A DNA stretch of 64,000 nucleotides from a virus. Position 1 is the stretch's first letter; each line of letters begins with the position of its first letter. Under the pieces are notes generated by a model. That model saw only the letters and a list, made by a program, of their open reading frames with translations, did no database searches and was not told the DNA's origin. The stretch spans positions 1 to 64,000 of IMG/VR virus record IMGVR_UViG_3300027832_000009. One strand, written 5' to 3'. Below are positions 17,457 through 60,761 of this stretch, piece after piece. The translations under genes were made by a program, and so were the position numbers.

Positions 17457-20400
17457 TCATGTAGCTGCTATCAGATTGAACTTTTTGTCGCCAGCAAGCC
17501 ACAGCTGAGCCTGCTCGCACGTCATGATGGTAGATGGAACACCCATCGTAACCATCTTACCAGTCACACAGCCAGCAACAAGCCTCTGTGAATTGTCTGC
17601 CAATCGGTACAACGCTTCTGGTGTGTTGCTGATCGGGTTTGTCATGCTGTGCACACACACCGCACCAGACTCTTCAATATACCTGGCCCACCCAAACCGG
17701 GTGATTCGGATAGATCGGATGTCTTGATTCGTCTCCTCGTTGATCTGCGCAACCGTTTGTGTCTCCGGTCGCATAACAATCTGCTCATCCACTCGTATGC
17801 CGTGAAGCGACCAGACCCCAAAACCATCACGGTACCGACACGCCATCCCTGTCTCGTTGTGCAGTCGCCCCGCTTCATCTCGGTGCAGCTCACTGTGCCG
17901 GTGCTGAAAAATGCACGCACCCTTATACGGCGCCCACCAGCCGCAGTGCTTGGCCAGCTCAAGCAGTCCGGAAAGTTTATCTGTAGCCTCCGTTAACCCG
18001 CAATGCTCGCGGAAAAATGCGTAATAAGATAACCACCCTACGTCGTGTGATCCAAAAACTTGATCGCTGACCTTATTCAGGAGCTGCTCTCGTAACTGCT
18101 CCGGGGTCTGCTCCGGGGTCTGCTCCGGGGTCTGATCGCTGACCTGCTCCAGGACCGGATCACCGACCTGCGCACTGACCGGGCCACCAACCTGAGCCCA
18201 TGTCCGCGAGCTAACATAAACCCGGACCTGCTCCCGGACCTGATCCATGATCGCCTTGTTGACCTGATCAGAGACCTGATTCGAGACCAAATCCTTGACC
18301 TGCTCCGTGACCAGCTCGCCAACCTGATCTAGGACCTGCCTCCAGATCTGACTCCAGCCCTGATCCAAGACCCGAGTACTGATCTGATCCCAGACATGCT
18401 CCCGCGCCTCGTCGCTAACCTTCGCATCGACCTGAGAACCGGCCTCAGTCCTGAGCATATCCCTGATCTGATCCCAGACCTGCTCCAGGACCAGATCACT
18501 GACCTGATCATTGACCGGACCAACGACCTGAGCATCTGCCAGCAAGTGGACATAACCCCGGGACTGCTCCGTGACCTGCCTGTTGACCTGAGCATCAACC
18601 TGATCAGCGACCTGATTCGAGACCTTCACCTGGACCGTCCCCATGGCCGTCTCGTTGAGCTGATCCTGGACTAGGTCCCGGATTTGCCTCAAGACCTGAC
18701 CGGGGATCCAGCTCAGTACCTGATTCGCGACCGCCGCACTGACCTGCTGATTGACCTGCCCGTTGACCAGCTCCCTAGCCCGTGCATCGACCTGATCTCT
18801 GACCTGCTCCAGCACCTGATTACTAACCTGCTCCCGGATTTGGTCACTGACCACGCTGCTGACCTGATGGATAACCCGATCATTGACCTGATCCAAGACG
18901 TTCTTCCTGATCTGGCCCAAGACCTCGCCCGCGACCGGATCACTGACACTCTCGCGAACCTGACTCCAGATCTGATCCCGTACCGTTGCAACGACCTGAT
19001 CTCGGAGTTGCTCCCACACCTGTTCACGGACCAGCTCCTCGGCCTGATCCGAGACCGTATCACCGACCTGCGCACTGACATAATTACTGATCTGATCCCT
19101 GATCTTCGCACTGACCTGCTCGCTGAGCTGCGCGTCGACCTGCGAACCGACCGGACTCCAGATCTGGTTCCAGACCTGACCCCAGACCTGATCACCGACC
19201 TGCTCCATGGTCGCCTCACTGACCAGCTCATGGACCTGACCCGAGACAGTATCCCGGACCTGCTCGCTGACCTGACCGCTGACACGCATCCGGATCTTCT
19301 CCCAGACTTGCTCCCGAACCTGCCCGCCGACTAGCATCCGGATCTGCCCCCAGACTTGATCACGAACCTGATCGCTGGACTGCTCCCGGACCTGATCTTG
19401 GACCTGCTGCCGGACCCCTGCACTGATCGCCGCATTGAGCTGATCGCTGACACCGTTCCGGACCTGATCCACGACCCGCTCGCCGACCTGATTTCGGACC
19501 TGATCCCGTACCGTTGCAACGACCCGCTCTCTGATCTGCTCCCAGACCTGATCTCGGATATGCTCCCCTACCTGCGAACTGACCTCGTCACCTGGAGTAT
19601 TCAGGATGATCTCACGTGATCGCTCCCAGACCTGATCTGCCACCTGCCCGGTGACCCGCTCACGGACCGCTCTCCGAGCCGTCTCGCTGGGCTGCTCCCG
19701 GACCTCAGCCGCAACCGACTCGCTGAGCTGCTCCCCAACCTGCTCAATGGCCTGCCCGCTGAGCTGCTCCCGGACCTGCTCCAAGACCAGCTCTTTTAGT
19801 TGTTCCCAAGCCTGACCCATGACATGGTTGCTGGACTGCTCCCGGACCATCCTACGGACCGACTCGCTGGCCTGATCCATGACCTCGCCAGCGGCATGAT
19901 TGTTGGCCATATTACGGACCTTACCCCAGACATGCTCACCGACGACATGCTCGCCGACCTGCTCCCGGATCTGCTCACCGACGCTCTCGCGTACCTGAGC
20001 CGAGACCGGACCACGGACCTTACCCCAGACATGCTCACCGACCTGCCCACTGATCAGCTCACTGATTTGTGCAGCGACCTGATTACTGACCTGGTTATGG
20101 GCCTCAGCCCAGACCTGCCCCCAGACACGAGTACCAACCTGCTCACCGACCGGCTCGGCAACCCCAGCCCTGACATGCGCATCGACCTGACCGCGGACCT
20201 GGCCACTGGCCTGATCCTGGGCCTGCTCGCCGACCTGTTCCCGGATTCTGTCCCGGATCTGCCCCATGACCGGCTCGGCGACATGATCCCTGACCTGATC
20301 CAAGACTTCACTACTGAGCTTCTCGCAGAGCTTACCCCAGATCTGCCCCAAGACCTGCCCCAAGACCTGATCGCTGACTTTCTCGCCTGGGGTATGCGCA

Positions 20401-21716
20401 ATCGCCTCTTGGGCTACCTCCCAGGCCTGCTCCCGGACCGGCCTCAAGATCTGCTCCCGAACCGCGAGCGTATCATTGCCCGCCTCCCATATCTGATCAC
20501 TGATATCATCGCCGACCTGTTCCCGGATCTGATCACGGATCTGATTATCGATCCGACCCCAGATCTGCCAACGGACCTGCTCCCAGATCTCCTCCCGTAT
20601 CAGCCCCGAGACCTGCGAGTGGAGCGCACCACTTACCTGATTGGTGACCTGAGTATCGACACGATCACCGACCGGATCCAAGACCTGATCAGCGAGCTCA
20701 TTCAGGACCTGCTCCTTGACCTCCTCGTTGACCATATCCAGTACCGGCCACGTGACCTGCTCGTGGATCATAGAATTGACCTGAGCACTGACCTGGTTGT
20801 CGAGCTGATCCAGGGCCTGCTCAACGAGCTCATCCCGGATCTGCTTACCGACCTGCTCGCTGAGCGTATCATCGACCTGAGCACTGACCTGATCCAAAAT
20901 CTGCCCCGCGACCTGCTGCCAGACCTGACCCATGACATGGAGCGCATCACTGACCTGCCCGCTGACCTGCGCATCGACACTATCACCGACCTGAGCAGTG
21001 AGAGCATCACTGACCCCCCCGTTGACCATATCCCGTACCGGCCACGTGACCCGATCGTTGATCATAGAACTGACCTGAGCACTGACCTGGTTGTCGAGCT
21101 GAGCCAAGACCTGCTCAGCGAGCTGATTCCTGATCTGCTTACCGACCTGCTCGGTGACCTGCTCGCTGACCGGATCACTGACACTCTCGCGAACCTGATT
21201 CCAGATCTGATCCCGTACCGTCTGCCAGATCTGATACACGATCCTATCGCCGACCTGTTCCTTGACCTGCTCGTTGAGCATATCATCGACCTGAGCGCTG
21301 GCCTGTTTGTCGACCTGACTCAAGACATGGTTCCGTACCTGCCCACCGACCTGATCACTAACCGGCCTGGTGCTCTTACCCTTGACCTGCTGAATAACCC
21401 GATCCAAAACGCTATCACGGACCTGCGCCCAGGCCTTCGCCAAGATTTTATTCCTGACCTGGTGCTGGAGCCGCTCCATACCTTGATCCGAGGCAATAGA
21501 CTGCAGTGCTACCGCCCCCATAGCCGCCGCTATGGGCGAATCGAAAAGAAGAAACAATTTGGGCGGCTCCAGCCCAGCTGCTACGTAGCACTCGATTGCA
21601 GCCGCTTTGGCCTTCTCGAAATCGCACGGCTCGCATGAGAGCCCTATCTTCAACCATTTCTCTGTGTGCAGCGGGAGCTGCGCGATCTGTTCTGGTGTGA
21701 GTTTTTCTAACTTCAT
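17457..21716 (-). CDS. Giant DUF6745-like protein with QV tetrad repeats
   Basis: Predicted 1419 aa. Residues 1-85 (LTPEQIAQLP...WLKIGLSCEP, AGLEPPKLFLLFDSPIAAAM) match what I know of the N-terminal region of DUF6745 proteins. Residues about 1221-1419 match the DUF6745 C-terminal region: HCGWWAPYKGACIFQHRHSE, LHRDEAGRLHNETG, RDGFGVWSLHG. Between them are about 1130 residues of a four-residue period, mostly xxQV/xxQI. Shorter QV-rich inserts are, from memory, present in bacterial DUF6745 proteins. Function unknown. An extended fibrous or scaffold role is inference. Confidence 0.85.
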   Translation of the reverse strand: MKLEKLTPEQIAQLPLHTEKWLKIGLSCEPCDFEKAKAAAIECYVAAGLEPPKLFLLFDSPIAAAMGAVALQSIASDQGMERLQHQVRNKILAKAWAQVRDSVLDRVIQQVKGKSTRPVSDQVGGQVRNHVLSQVDKQASAQVDDMLNEQVKEQVGDRIVYQIWQTVRDQIWNQVRESVSDPVSEQVTEQVGKQIRNQLAEQVLAQLDNQVSAQVSSMINDRVTWPVRDMVNGGVSDALTAQVGDSVDAQVSGQVSDALHVMGQVWQQVAGQILDQVSAQVDDTLSEQVGKQIRDELVEQALDQLDNQVSAQVNSMIHEQVTWPVLDMVNEEVKEQVLNELADQVLDPVGDRVDTQVTNQVSGALHSQVSGLIREEIWEQVRWQIWGRIDNQIRDQIREQVGDDISDQIWEAGNDTLAVREQILRPVREQAWEVAQEAIAHTPGEKVSDQVLGQVLGQIWGKLCEKLSSEVLDQVRDHVAEPVMGQIRDRIREQVGEQAQDQASGQVRGQVDAHVRAGVAEPVGEQVGTRVWGQVWAEAHNQVSNQVAAQISELISGQVGEHVWGKVRGPVSAQVRESVGEQIREQVGEHVVGEHVWGKVRNMANNHAAGEVMDQASESVRRMVREQSSNHVMGQAWEQLKELVLEQVREQLSGQAIEQVGEQLSESVAAEVREQPSETARRAVRERVTGQVADQVWERSREIILNTPGDEVSSQVGEHIRDQVWEQIRERVVATVRDQVRNQVGERVVDQVRNGVSDQLNAAISAGVRQQVQDQVREQSSDQVRDQVWGQIRMLVGGQVREQVWEKIRMRVSGQVSEQVRDTVSGQVHELVSEATMEQVGDQVWGQVWNQIWSPVGSQVDAQLSEQVSAKIRDQISNYVSAQVGDTVSDQAEELVREQVWEQLRDQVVATVRDQIWSQVRESVSDPVAGEVLGQIRKNVLDQVNDRVIHQVSSVVSDQIREQVSNQVLEQVRDQVDARARELVNGQVNQQVSAAVANQVLSWIPGQVLRQIRDLVQDQLNETAMGTVQVKVSNQVADQVDAQVNRQVTEQSRGYVHLLADAQVVGPVNDQVSDLVLEQVWDQIRDMLRTEAGSQVDAKVSDEAREHVWDQISTRVLDQGWSQIWRQVLDQVGELVTEQVKDLVSNQVSDQVNKAIMDQVREQVRVYVSSRTWAQVGGPVSAQVGDPVLEQVSDQTPEQTPEQTPEQLREQLLNKVSDQVFGSHDVGWLSYYAFFREHCGLTEATDKLSGLLELAKHCGWWAPYKGACIFQHRHSELHRDEAGRLHNETGMACRYRDGFGVWSLHGIRVDEQIVMRPETQTVAQINEETNQDIRSIRITRFGWARYIEESGAVCVHSMTNPISNTPEALYRLADNSQRLVAGCVTGKMVTMGVPSTIMTCEQAQLWLAGDKKFNLIAAT
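18072..21461 (-). repeat. 12-bp-period coding repeat (xxQV tetrads)
   Basis: About 3.4 kb in which CAGGTC-type QV codons (GACCTG on the plus strand) recur every 12 bases, with few reading-frame breaks in any frame. That explains the long antisense open frame here. Repeat units are diverged, apart from an exact triple TPEQ near the C-terminal end (around 18105-18140), so most of the array is old and under selection. Confidence 0.85.
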
Positions 21717-56087: not shown

Positions 56088-59000
56088 TTAAATGAATTCG
56101 ACAGGGACACCTGCCGCTGTAGCCGTCTCCTCAGTCATAGACTCACCCCAATTCAGCTGTACCTTGTAATCGATACCGAAATTGTAAGGTGCCCCTACCG
56201 TGATTGGCTTATTGTCCAAACTGCGAGGCCACACTGGGACCTGCTCAATCATACACTTCCTGAGCGTCCCTGCTCGCACAACATTACCACTGCTGTCTAC
56301 CTCATCGCACACAAACTCTCGTATGTGCGGTATCGGTACCTCGAACAGCAGCGAGTCATGAATCTGCATGAGGATTCTGAACGGTACGCTGCCTACCAGT
56401 TTCTTCTCCTCTGAGAAGTTGTGGATTGCAACCCATACCGCATCCGCCACACAATTCTGGATCGGGAAGTTTTTTCCCTGCCGACGCTGATCTGATTCAA
56501 CAGACCTGTTTCTCGTTACAGTGAACCTTCTGTAACGGCCGAATGATCCGGCCAACCAACGCGGATTCTGCGTTCTCTCTTCGCACATGTCAAGGAAGGG
56601 AAGGGTCAACGGGTATTGCATGAAATACGCGTCAATAATCTGCTGACACTGATCAGCCGTAACGTCTGTCCCCTCCTCCTGACACTGCCGGGCTATAGCT
56701 TCAGCCCCCCTACCGTAGGGGATGCCAAAGTTGACACTTTGGTGTGTCAGGATACCACCATAGGTGACGACGTGTGTAGAGTCCGTAGTACAATCATAAA
56801 CTCTTCGATCACCTACTGCTGTCACTTCCCGCGCTAGCTGGAAGTTTGCTCTCAGTTCCAACAACGCATTCAACTCGTTGTAAGCCGCTGTGGCCTCCTC
56901 TGATAGCCGGCCAGGTTCTACAGCACCAAGAATCAACCGCAGCCGTGTAGGACTAAGGCTGACTCGTGCACTCACTCTCGTACATTCACGGCACTTCTCT
57001 TTGGTCTTACCTGTCACATACGGCAACAGCACAGTCAACCTACCAACCTGGTGCGGAATGATGTCTCTGTCCTGTTTGTACGCCCCGCTAGCCACACACT
57101 GAGCTGTTTTGCGTTGTGTGATGAATCCGATGTGCTCCAGGAAATTATCCCGAGACGTGTTACCTCGCACAGCGATCGCATAGTACGTCCCGTCGTAGCC
57201 AGCTCGGCTCTCTGGGGATACTTTACAGATCACAGCAAATGCAGCCAGCAACTGCTGCAGTCCGTACGCCAGCTCGTTACTCGCGGTGGAGTACGTGATC
57301 CCAAAGCTGCTGCCGTTACGCTTTGCCGACCCGTCACCTTCGAACATCCACCTCAGCATGATTCGCAGCAGGTGCTGGGGCCATGACCATACAAACTCTG
57401 GCATCTTGAGGTTGTGAGAACCTCTACCACAAAACTCGCACAACCAGCGAGACAACTCCACGGAATTTATGGCATGTTGAACCGCTCCTTTTGCATTTGC
57501 TTGAGGTGATCGTACCCTGTCGCCAAACAGCCGGAGTAGCAATTGAGTAACTGCTGCAGAAAACTCTGGGTCGTACGCCTCGGATATCCCAATCTGAATA
57601 CAGCCTCTAACCGGGTCATTGCTACCTTCTGCCAGAAACAAACCAATAAACGCAGCCCAGTCTTCGTTGAACGTAGTTGGGAAGTTTATTGATTTGAAAC
57701 TTGCCAGCTGCTCGCACGGAATTGTCACGAACTCTGTGTTGTCCCCAAACGGCCCCACAGCCTGTCTGACAGCAACCCAATCCCCAACAGCGATGTCTTC
57801 AGCATACCGGAATCCATACGAGCCATCAGCGTCGATCACTCGATACTGGTGAGCCCCGGTTGAAGTCAGGCTGAACCCCATCTCTGTTTCTACCTTCAGG
57901 CAGGGTTTAATCCCGCCGGAATAGACCCCAAGCAGCGGCAGATCTTGCCGCTCACTAGCCAGCTGCACAACTCCCGGCCTGGCTTGCCATTCGTCGTCGT
58001 TCAAACCTGCGGCCACTGCTTCAATTAGCAACATACCTTGGGAAGTATGCAGTCTTGTACCCTCCACAACACACTTTGCAGCATTTCTAAACTGCGGAAA
58101 CCCTGCTTTTACCAGCCCTTTTTTAGTTGGTTCGCAGTCTAGCTTAAACGCTTTAACAGCCTGATTGCTGTGGATGTCGTAATACTCTGGGTGATTCTCC
58201 GGCAGAATATTTCTTCTGACGTGCTCAATCATCGCGGCATCTCCGGACAGCCACGCTATCACAGCCAGCTCGGCCCCGGTGTAGTCTGCCTCTATCAGAA
58301 CGTACCCTGGGGAGGCTTTTAACACGCTGCGGATAGGGTGTGAGTAACACGGGGCACCCAACACGCTGAGATAATCGCCCTGCGCCTTCCTCTCTCCGGT
58401 GACCCTGTCCGTTGCCCAGGATCCCAAAATTCTTTTGTAGTCCGCCTCGCGTCGCGACGAGATAGCTTGCAGGTTTGGGCGTGAGCTGGAGCCTCGCCCA
58501 GTTTCCATCGTCTGCCTGAATCTTGTCCTCACTTTACCGTCATCATTTGCCAAACTGGCAATACCCTTATCGTAAACAAAAAATCCGGCTGTGTTTTTTT
58601 GAAATTCTCCATTCGTGTTTGTGAAAGGTGTTCTTAGAAGACCCTTCAGCGTTTGCGAAACAAACACAATATCTCGCAAGAGCATGACCAGCGGGTTACG
58701 GTACCCGAGAATGCCCAACGTCTCCTTATCCGCCGCTGGTGTGTGAACGGCCTCTGCTCTTCGCATGACGACCTTGTCCCACGTCATCGACCGCTTACCT
58801 GTTGTCTTCAACGGGGTAAACCCCAACGACAACGCACCCTCGGGGCGCTGCGCCCTCCGCTGATTTGTAATTGGGTCAATCTTGGGGGAGAACGGCGTCC
58901 CAAACAAAAACTCCACCTTATGTGGGGCGCTGCTTGGATTGAAGGTGGGCCAACTGATTTGAGATCTCAGGTGCGTCAACAGCCTATTATGCACATCGAT

Positions 59001-60743
59001 GAACAACAACGCCAACATATCGATCCGCGGAAAATCGACGCTGATCCCTGTCATCTCCATTTCCAACACGCCGAGACTGGCGCTGTGTGAAACGAAATAC
59101 GACTCCCACGAACTGTTACCAAACGAATCTCTGTCCAGCAGTCCGCCCTCCTGCATATGCTTGAAACAGATTCTCCGGCAACAGTCTACGTCCAGGTGTG
59201 CATAGTTGTACCCAAACTCTGGGTCTGTCGGCTCGGGGTGTAGCAACCACTTCGGCAAAAACCCATAACCCTCGAGCTGATCTTTAGTGATCCCCAACTG
59301 TTTGCACCGCTCGGTCACCGCGTCCCGGATGAGTCTGTCGTACGCCGGGGCATCCGTGTGCTTAATTGTCTGCTCTGTCAGCCCGTAGAGTGCTGTCTCA
59401 TCCACAGCGTGACATTGCAGGATTGTGTCAAACCCGCCGTGAGACCGCATCTGCGATAACTCAGCTGGTGGTGCGTACGACTCTCTCGCATCGATGCCTG
59501 CGTGCACCAGCCACGGCAAGTCCGCTCTAAAGAAGTGGCCTCCAACTCTTGGACGCCAGTTCGCAGCGGGATCTGGCAGGAGCAGCCGCTTTAACTCTGT
59601 TATCGCCGCATCAATACTCGGCTTGAATGCCGGCACCCCATTCTGGTGTCGCAGGATCACCGCAAAACCTTCTTTATGTTTTGTCGAGAATTGGATCGTT
59701 CGAAGGTAGGCACCCTCGTCAGTCGGGTACGCTCCATCCCACTCCCCGTCCACAGCAATCAGGTTTCGCCACGGGTCCGTATCGTTGCGTATCTCGTCAA
59801 TTATTTCCCGCAATTGCCGCTGCTTGTAGATATTGATGTGCCGCAAGCCTGTCTCTTGCTGACCTACCTCGATACCTCGTGTTAACCTGGCAAACGTACT
59901 GAACGTAGCACAGAAGTCATCCAGCTTTTCCGGTTGTAGAGCTACCGCACCAGGACTCTCCGCAACCATGACCCGGGCTGTCTTGAACATAGGCTCCCCG
60001 CCTGGGAGTGTCAAGTTAATGTACTTGTCAGCCACTCGTCCCAGCATGTCCCTGATGGTTTGTTTGTCTCCCAAAATAGCCTTAACAGCTTCAGACCCAA
60101 GACAGAGGATAAAATCTGGCTGCACCAGCCGCAGCTCCTGCTCAAGCAGGATCGCATTAGACTTAATGTGGTCTTTTGGTATCGCATGACTCTGGGGGTT
60201 TACAATCGGCCACTTCACTACAGGGGTCACGTACCAGGTTTGCGAGTCTGTAACACCTGCCGTCAGCATAGCTTGCTGCACCACTGTCGCCGCATCACTT
60301 ACCAGGTGGCTTCTGGCCGCCATCTCGTCACGACCTGGGCACTTATAGATCACCATCACACTGGACCGCCTCGGTCCTCCGGCTTGGTAGACCAAGACCT
60401 GGTGAAACTTGTGCCCTGGAAGCATTGGCGCATCAACATAAGTCGACTTCAGCGGTACCCGCATTGTGAAGCGTGGGTCATAAAGCGCTCGTCTATACAG
60501 GTAATTCAGGGCTGGTCCGAATTCCTGTGGCTGTCCGGCAGCTCGGCTCCTCGCTGTAGCTGCTGTGGGCTGCGGATCCCCAAGTGCTTCCGCCATAAGC
60601 CTAAAGACGTGGCCCGGTGGAGGCATACCTGGGCTGTTTAACGGGTAGAACGGGTACTCTCTGTTGAACTCCTCGCTAACAGGTTTCCCCGCTAAAAGTC
60701 GCTGAAATTGCTCACTGTCTACAACGTTCTCAAACGAATTCAT
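56088..60743 (-). CDS. UDG-like/3'-5' exonuclease/DNA polymerase A fusion, intein-split
   Basis: Predicted 1551 aa before splicing, 1106 after; ATG at 60743 with AAAGG 8 bases upstream. Residues about 125-297 resemble family 4 uracil-DNA glycosylase (VIYKCPGRDE, FILCLGSEAVKAILG). Then DEDD exonuclease motifs: AVDGEWDG (D332, E334), GHFFRADLPW (D408), AHLDVD (D518). Polymerase motif A is IEADYTGAELAV (D820), motif B FRNAAK-SVNFGIPYG with an intein between K890 and S1336, motif C MQIHDSLLFEV (D1463). It is the replicative polymerase of the phage by context. Confidence 0.9.
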   Translation of the reverse strand: MNSFENVVDSEQFQRLLAGKPVSEEFNREYPFYPLNSPGMPPPGHVFRLMAEALGDPQPTAATARSRAAGQPQEFGPALNYLYRRALYDPRFTMRVPLKSTYVDAPMLPGHKFHQVLVYQAGGPRRSSVMVIYKCPGRDEMAARSHLVSDAATVVQQAMLTAGVTDSQTWYVTPVVKWPIVNPQSHAIPKDHIKSNAILLEQELRLVQPDFILCLGSEAVKAILGDKQTIRDMLGRVADKYINLTLPGGEPMFKTARVMVAESPGAVALQPEKLDDFCATFSTFARLTRGIEVGQQETGLRHINIYKQRQLREIIDEIRNDTDPWRNLIAVDGEWDGAYPTDEGAYLRTIQFSTKHKEGFAVILRHQNGVPAFKPSIDAAITELKRLLLPDPAANWRPRVGGHFFRADLPWLVHAGIDARESYAPPAELSQMRSHGGFDTILQCHAVDETALYGLTEQTIKHTDAPAYDRLIRDAVTERCKQLGITKDQLEGYGFLPKWLLHPEPTDPEFGYNYAHLDVDCCRRICFKHMQEGGLLDRDSFGNSSWESYFVSHSASLGVLEMEMTGISVDFPRIDMLALLFIDVHNRLLTHLRSQISWPTFNPSSAPHKVEFLFGTPFSPKIDPITNQRRAQRPEGALSLGFTPLKTTGKRSMTWDKVVMRRAEAVHTPAADKETLGILGYRNPLVMLLRDIVFVSQTLKGLLRTPFTNTNGEFQKNTAGFFVYDKGIASLANDDGKVRTRFRQTMETGRGSSSRPNLQAISSRREADYKRILGSWATDRVTGERKAQGDYLSVLGAPCYSHPIRSVLKASPGYVLIEADYTGAELAVIAWLSGDAAMIEHVRRNILPENHPEYYDIHSNQAVKAFKLDCEPTKKGLVKAGFPQFRNAAKCVVEGTRLHTSQGMLLIEAVAAGLNDDEWQARPGVVQLASERQDLPLLGVYSGGIKPCLKVETEMGFSLTSTGAHQYRVIDADGSYGFRYAEDIAVGDWVAVRQAVGPFGDNTEFVTIPCEQLASFKSINFPTTFNEDWAAFIGLFLAEGSNDPVRGCIQIGISEAYDPEFSAAVTQLLLRLFGDRVRSPQANAKGAVQHAINSVELSRWLCEFCGRGSHNLKMPEFVWSWPQHLLRIMLRWMFEGDGSAKRNGSSFGITYSTASNELAYGLQQLLAAFAVICKVSPESRAGYDGTYYAIAVRGNTSRDNFLEHIGFITQRKTAQCVASGAYKQDRDIIPHQVGRLTVLLPYVTGKTKEKCRECTRVSARVSLSPTRLRLILGAVEPGRLSEEATAAYNELNALLELRANFQLAREVTAVGDRRVYDCTTDSTHVVTYGGILTHQSVNFGIPYGRGAEAIARQCQEEGTDVTADQCQQIIDAYFMQYPLTLPFLDMCEERTQNPRWLAGSFGRYRRFTVTRNRSVESDQRRQGKNFPIQNCVADAVWVAIHNFSEEKKLVGSVPFRILMQIHDSLLFEVPIPHIREFVCDEVDSSGNVVRAGTLRKCMIEQVPVWPRSLDNKPITVGAPYNFGIDYKVQLNWGESMTEETATAAGVPVEFI
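56739..58073 (-). mobile_element. LAGLIDADG intein in polymerase motif B
   Basis: 445 codons, residues 891-1335 of the precursor. Starts with Cys (CVVEGTRLHTS, block A), has T962..H965 (block B), and ends with VYDCTTDSTHVV and GGILTHQ followed by Ser+1. The usual terminal HN is HQ, a known functional variant. Homing-endonuclease motifs are FIGLFLAEGS (1032-1041) and LRWMFEGDGS (1130-1139). Removal rejoins RNAAK-SVNFGIPYG, an intact O-helix. Confidence 0.92.
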
Positions 60744-60761
60744 ACAACACACCTTTCCTAG

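Follow-up and report, generated by a model that had tools for sequence, protein, structure and literature searches.

The tetrad array and its gene

The minus-strand gene at positions 17457-21716 of the stretch analysed here encodes a DUF6745-type phage protein of 1419 amino acids (aa) carrying a giant array of four-residue repeats (tetrads). This stretch, hereafter the window, comprises 64 kb of the IMG/VR virus record IMGVR_UViG_3300027832_000009, which is 87,335 bp in full, and membership in that record confirms the viral origin supposed from the letters alone. The gene is one open frame with an ATG start and zero internal stops, and it constitutes the second-largest open reading frame (ORF) of the window, at 6.7% of its length. 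An initial reading made from the sequence alone (the sequence-only reading) had described a stop-free frame of 1419 codons with roughly 280 tetrads, occupying nearly 7% of the window, and these figures held. A phase-tracking parse run over residues 86-1212, in which complete tetrads were counted, gave 280 of them with a period of exactly 4, interrupted by only three phase breaks (Table 1).

Table 1. Features of the array gene, in window coordinates (CDS, coding sequence; nt, nucleotides).
Feature	Window positions	Strand	Basis
Whole gene: 1419-aa DUF6745-type phage protein with giant tetrad array	17457..21716	-	ORF and Pfam
Conserved N-terminal region, residues 1-85, common to array-less and array-bearing DUF6745 proteins	21462..21716	-	Alignment
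Tetrad array, residues 88-1212, 280 tetrads x-x-(Q)-(V/I/L)	18081..21455	-	Phase-tracking parse
Phase break 1, two extra residues SD, 256-257	20946..20951	-	Phase-tracking parse
Phase break 2, two extra residues ND, 414-415	20472..20477	-	Phase-tracking parse
Phase break 3, one extra residue V, 592	19941..19943	-	Phase-tracking parse
Internal segmental duplication copy A, CDS nt 560-706	21011..21157	-	90% identical to copy B
Internal segmental duplication copy B, CDS nt 854-1000	20717..20863	-	90% identical to copy A
C-terminal DUF6745 domain, residues 1213-1419 plus stop; Pfam match 1217-1357	17457..18080	-	Pfam

The four tetrad positions differ in their composition. The first is held by R (59), S (53), W (28), G (27), L (24) and others, and the second mainly by E (78), D (65), G (37), A (29) and N (23). 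The third is Q in 154 of the 280 tetrads, the rest being scattered among R, P, K, E, L, H and T, and the fourth is predominantly V (181), followed by I (43), L (21) and A (20), with F, D, N and H absent. An in-phase V, I or L was present in 245 of the 280 tetrads, compared to 82.1 ± 3.8 (maximum 97) in 2000 residue shuffles.

At the DNA level, the array had been described as diverged, and the 252 distinct 12-mers found among the 280 units agree with this description. Its codon usage does not, as 78% of the array Val codons are GTC and 89% of its Asp codons are GAT, compared to 15% and 42%, respectively, in twenty other ORFs of the same phage. Such usage, foreign to the phage, indicates that the window array arose from a 12-bp DNA repeat and has drifted since. 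The residue of the repeat is still recognizable, and the array can be regarded as an older one of its kind that has partly diverged. Duplicated internal blocks are also present in it, for instance the two copies listed in Table 1. Antisense to the array, a plus-strand frame of 612 aa composed of xxDL tetrads is open at window 19800-21638; it is considered a by-product of codons in the array that leave no stops on the reverse strand.

Membership in the DUF6745 family

The C-terminal end of the protein matches PF20530 (DUF6745) with 97.7 bits against a cut-off of 27 (E 7.5e-28). The alignment spans positions 6-138 of the 206-position model, and the remainder aligns to relatives but diverges. The N-terminal end lies outside the Pfam model, yet it is conserved in DUF6745 relatives, with 31-97% identity and twelve invariant columns in the alignment. 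The family assignment proposed for both ends was therefore correct. Profile searches with the C-terminal domain recovered 80 bacterial loci, nearly all from Streptomyces, Actinomadura, Nonomuraea and their kin, and 33 viral loci, the bacterial ones being located on chromosomes as well as on plasmids. A literature search on DUF6745 and on the repeat strings found nothing, and a BFVD search returned, at E below 0.01, only DUF6745 and uncharacterised phage proteins.

The array is absent from nearly all bacterial and several phage DUF6745 proteins extracted, among them those of Mycolicibacterium and of Microcystis phages. The latter include gp174 of the cultured Microcystis phage Ma-LMM01 (L257, 1450-2586), which adjoins a uracil-DNA glycosylase (UDG) gene, and the related MaMV phages carry the same array-less homologue. 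An array-less gene is also located on a Streptomyces cadmiisoli plasmid (L124) beside the STM4011-STM4015 gene set; only the plasmid locus was examined there. Many other phage DUF6745 proteins hold arrays at the same site, with QV, QL, SL, NL, SV/AV, TV or EI in positions 3-4, and also QSL. On plasmid 3 of Nocardia farcinica (L123, 400-1932), the array appears to switch frame, from GPGVGPGG to RAQVGDQV, and seems to be a broken or frame-switched copy.

Arrays at this site range from none to 280 tetrads. Since the 36 complete DUF6745 proteins among the listed matches of a DNA-pattern search have 13-59 tetrads, the 280 units of the window are extreme, and they form the longest copy of the tetrad repeat found in this analysis. 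When repeat numbers were compared between related phages, about 178 tetrads were counted in a sister phage (L002), while 20, 46 and 63 units are present in Mycobacterium abscessus prophages whose ends are near-identical.

Searches of Pfam, PHROG, NCBIfam and PADLOC also matched the array to DUF445, YpjP, CTD9, GvpQ, DUF4816, phrog_568 and REase_II. Two of these exceeded their Pfam cut-offs, namely DUF445 (58.4 bits, cut-off 33.8) and YpjP (32.2 bits, cut-off 27). As all matches lie within the repeat and several unrelated families are hit likewise, they were treated as compositional and repeat-driven.

Divergence from the sister phage

The sister phage, represented by an 82.7-kb contig, encodes a protein of 1012 aa whose ends are 95-97% identical to those of the window protein, while its array has about 715 residues compared to 1125. 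In the codon alignment of the two arrays, 10 of the 14 gaps have a residue length divisible by four, so that length changes mostly by whole units, and two of the lengths that deviate, 78 and 25, coincide with phase breaks specific to the window. The ratio of nonsynonymous to synonymous substitution rates (dN/dS) is 0.44 in one end and 0.24 in the other; in the alignable array blocks it is about 1.3-1.5. Nonsynonymous differences per site amount to 0.100, 0.096, 0.059 and 0.022 for tetrad positions 1 to 4, with synonymous differences at about 0.056, which indicates constraint at position 4 and none at positions 1-2. Judging from these rates, changes at positions 1-2 may have been favoured between the two phages.

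The two-part unit of related arrays

A more regular picture emerged from 21 related arrays, partly dependent on each other as three come from the M. abscessus prophages, in which a base of the 12-bp unit was scored as variable at a minor fraction of at least 0.15. Base 1 varies in 21 of the 21 arrays, base 5 in 17 and base 2 in 10, while the third bases (3, 6, 9 and 12), which are mostly synonymous sites, do so in 7 of 84 site-arrays (Fisher p about 1e-20). In one array of 61 units (L113), there is zero variation outside bases 1 and 5. Base 1 has the alleles G and T plus A or C in many arrays, while base 8, the A of CAG, is essentially invariant. The position-4 codon is 84-100% fixed within arrays, although on average it accounts for 30% of the synonymous codons used in these genomes. 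Other DUF6745 arrays are written in different DNA (TCGTTG, AATCTC, ACCGTG or GAGATC), and the polar-aliphatic pattern of the protein is kept.

The resulting vocabulary at positions 1-2 is small, with G, R or W in the first place and D and A, G or V in the second, or, in C-ending arrays, R/D/Y/H/G or R/C/S. Arg in NGG-type arrays is encoded by AGG or by CGG, never by both within one array. All six word combinations are present in many arrays, positions 1 and 2 are near linkage equilibrium, and the order of the words is near random, although association between positions or repeated blocks were seen in some arrays. Tandem segmental duplication was considered as the sole source of the arrays and rejected, because the excess of word blocks is weak or absent in most of them, though present in the window.

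These arrays also bear on the proposal that selection acts on the period of the repeat and not on its DNA. In the window this stands as far as position 4 is concerned, which is limited to V/I/L/A and diverges less than synonymous sites. The related arrays speak against it, as they are extremely homogeneous in DNA, including third bases, their variation being confined to particular bases of positions 1-2.

A portable module

The DNA pattern built for the QV/QL unit matches at least 120 viral stretches. Because this pattern favours CAGSTC, the sharing of the hexamer across phages is partly an effect of ascertainment, while its constancy within a phage is not. Among the matches listed, most of the containing ORFs match the N- or C-terminal DUF6745 profile or are cut by contig ends, and the remaining ones are stand-alone genes or other proteins. 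Among actinobacteria the pattern is rare, having been found in 1 of the 396 genomes sampled.

The stand-alone genes encode 54-107 aa consisting almost only of tetrads between common ends (MKSVKKQV...KKELR and MNKV...EQTK). Seven were found on one contig (L171), five or more on another (L142), nine across L138 and L149, and two in L202. The seven genes of L171 (2357-3960, reverse complement) have conserved ends and scrambled variable pairs, with 4-bp overlaps at five consecutive junctions. Bases 1-5 of the units vary and bases 7-12 (CAGGTC) are nearly constant, even though GTC makes up 17-24% of genomic Val codons in the four phages compared (guanine-cytosine content, GC, 0.40-0.50). Arrays are also present in four carriers unrelated to DUF6745 (L186, L239, L242 and L157), of which the first three share a C-terminal end (SYWAVK...GKxxVxGKxGKxLGEY), and the N-termini of L239 and L242 differ. 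The tetrad array is thus a portable 12-bp module, which DUF6745 proteins share with two or more unrelated phage proteins and which also forms genes of its own.

Genomic context

Array-bearing DUF6745 genes are found near RecE and RecT (L097), Erf (L116), a Sak4-like protein (L110), DnaB (L102 and L118), a DNA helicase (L112) and a methyltransferase (L115). In prophiGD102-1, Gam, ERF and RepA are located near the DUF6745 gene, and in MW202476 a methyltransferase gene (adenine methylase) lies downstream of it. Such neighbours suggest an early, DNA-metabolism setting. The array gene of the window has no gene of these kinds directly beside it.

The window phage itself encodes a UDG-PolA fusion, a primase, a DnaB-like helicase, a UvsX-like protein, thymidylate synthase, SbcCD and a terminase. 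The fusion (window 56088-60752, minus strand) is a DNA polymerase A of 1554 aa joined to a uracil-DNA glycosylase domain and a 3'-5' exonuclease; a LAGLIDADG-like domain at its residues 1131-1209 probably marks an intein. The SbcC/SbcD pair, a DNA helicase and the terminase large subunit are located in record bases 63900-83800 (L120). Many other large ORFs match no PHROG, which marks the phage as a divergent virus.

Possible roles and origins of the array

We favour, with a probability of roughly 0.45, a reading based on these sequence patterns in which the array is a recombining structure with positions 3-4 as scaffold and positions 1-2 as a diversified putative interaction surface, held in a DUF6745 carrier. 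A portable module of 12 bp, or four residues, would have been inserted into the phage protein and expanded to its extreme length. The polar and aliphatic residues 3-4 would build the repeating scaffold, residues 1-2 would present the diversified surface, and recombination, by changing the number and order of units, could alter the putative binding. With less assurance, the protein may be proposed to target nucleic-acid metabolism or host defence in the early phase of infection, since most of the DUF6745 phage genes that were examined have recombination, replication or methylation genes around them. A bolder form of the same idea, rather doubtful at present, would see a mobile combinatorial recognition module of phages, with two scaffold residues and a two-residue code recombined by 12-bp units, either alone in operons of small proteins or in carriers such as DUF6745; the window would then contain the largest array of this module known.

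Several observations weigh against the favoured reading. The excess at positions 1-2 over synonymous differences between the window and its sister phage is modest and statistically not decisive, and many of the changes are clustered and multi-base, as gene conversion between units would give, which makes positive selection on these positions no more than a possibility. The near-invariant synonymous sites of the related arrays could reflect recent homogenisation or a constraint at the DNA or RNA level instead of protein selection, and metagenomic assembly may collapse arrays. Furthermore, the replication genes of the window phage lie tens of kb away from the array gene.

The main rival is a tolerated selfish repeat, an explanation that is unlikely but deserves to be taken seriously. 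According to it, a permissive loop gives room to a selfish or neutral 12-bp repeat, which grows by slippage or recombination; the protein tolerates an in-frame, soluble, mildly amphipathic insert, and positions 1-2 are unconstrained. The abundance of array-less DUF6745 proteins, the foreign codons, the dN/dS of the aligned array blocks, the readily changing unit number and the presence of the module in unrelated proteins could all be explained in this way. Tolerance, however, should free synonymous sites as well, and these hardly vary. The restricted and recurrent vocabulary, with Arg codons of a single type per array, and the limited choice of residues at position 4 are likewise not expected from it, and the translationally overlapping stand-alone genes argue for function.

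The fold of the array was approached by structure prediction. For a 120-residue segment of the window array, AlphaFold2 (AF2) produced one continuous helix, with a predicted local distance difference test (pLDDT) score of 83 for the best of five models (range 52-83) and a predicted template modelling score (pTM) of 0.37. In a related protein (L095) modelled with 46 relatives, most of both ends reached a pLDDT of about 90-98, the N-terminal region being mostly at about 95, and the array was helical at 42-85. A fold search against PDB gave nothing below E 0.28, and a PDB profile search gave weak matches to the array only. The array may be a helix, a beta-solenoid or disordered.

A narrow beta-solenoid with four-residue sides, in which V/L/I would point inward, Q/S/N/T/E would form homotypic ladders at position 3 and positions 1-2 would be exposed corners, is compatible with the favoured reading, although we hold it only tentatively. 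One inward aliphatic residue per four, a position-3 polar residue that is uniform within arrays and differs between them, and turn-type G/D/N/S at positions 1-2 all fit such a fold. Stacked beta coils were nevertheless predicted by AF2 neither for L095 nor for the window segment, despite its reported over-prediction of solenoids for repeats (PMC11795689), and the PDB fold search brought no match.

The sequence-only reading had proposed a rod, solenoid or fibre that holds the two end regions together. A long alpha-helical rod or spacer whose length would be its function, in the manner of coiled coils or tape-measure-like rods, is improbable. The array resembles these in its regular hydrophobic period, its length and the helix predicted for it, and its scores against DUF445 may reflect a helix-like composition. 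But structure predictors are known to hallucinate on repeats (PMC11795689), and the five models spread over 52-83 in pLDDT. Moreover, the strict period of 4.0 differs from the 3.5-3.8 of coiled coils and is outside the range accessible to alpha-helical ones, from 3.33 to about 3.9 residues (PMC4786415). Glycine content reaches 23% in some arrays, the window array contains 21 prolines, and phages with nearly identical ends differ by about 400 residues in array length. The tethering of the ends is weakened in particular, because the array is encoded alone in overlapping operons and its length at the same site varies from none to 280 tetrads. The earlier account was thus right in its observation and in the family, too narrow in its mechanism and partly wrong about the DNA.

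Selection could alternatively act on the nucleic acid, with the constant CAGGTC/CAGCTC half-unit every 12 bp serving as a recombination or binding site and the protein being a by-product. The constancy of this half, synonymous bases included, in the four phages where GTC is a minor Val codon, and the recurrence of the pattern in many viral stretches are consistent with such an element, which we nonetheless consider quite improbable. The pattern search itself selected for the motif, other DUF6745 arrays with different DNA keep the polar-aliphatic pattern, and the window array has lost most of its DNA identity but keeps the aliphatic residues at position 4. A tail tape-measure protein with a helix setting the tail length, suggested by the great length and repeat content of the second-largest ORF, can practically be dismissed, as DUF6745 proteins occur on bacterial chromosomes and plasmids and in early phage modules, the length differs greatly between sister phages, and no tail gene was identified adjoining the array gene.

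Relation to known repeat systems

The closest known system is the DUF6745 family itself, with which the window protein shares the C-terminal domain and the N-terminal region and, in many phage members, the shorter arrays at the same site; the array is not described by Pfam. Pentapeptide-repeat proteins have a five-residue period with an A(N/D)LXX motif. The tetrad array is similar to them in that the repeat is very short, each unit has one aliphatic residue of inward type and the number of units varies, but its period is 4 instead of 5, it lacks the A(N/D)LXX motif and it gave no Pfam pentapeptide hit. TAL-effector arrays are built of units of about 34 residues. Their likeness, in the way of working only, lies in near-identical units with two adjacent variable residues whose number and order are shuffled, whereas the tetrad has 4 residues, no sequence relation to them and no evidence of nucleic-acid recognition. 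Targets of diversity-generating retroelements are comparable in that diversification is phage-borne and restricted to certain codons. Unlike in those targets, variation in the tetrad arrays is not A-specific, as the A of CAG hardly varies, and the diversity resides among tandem units.

No family model or paper that we found describes a module that moves between unrelated phage proteins, also stands alone, and combines two variable residues with fixed third bases. Its strict four-residue period raises the question of what structure results. If functional, the array would rank with the smallest known protein surfaces that are modular and can be recombined, and phages could readily draw diversity from it in their conflict with the host. 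If neutral, it would represent a clean natural case of concerted evolution in which neighbouring codons behave oppositely.

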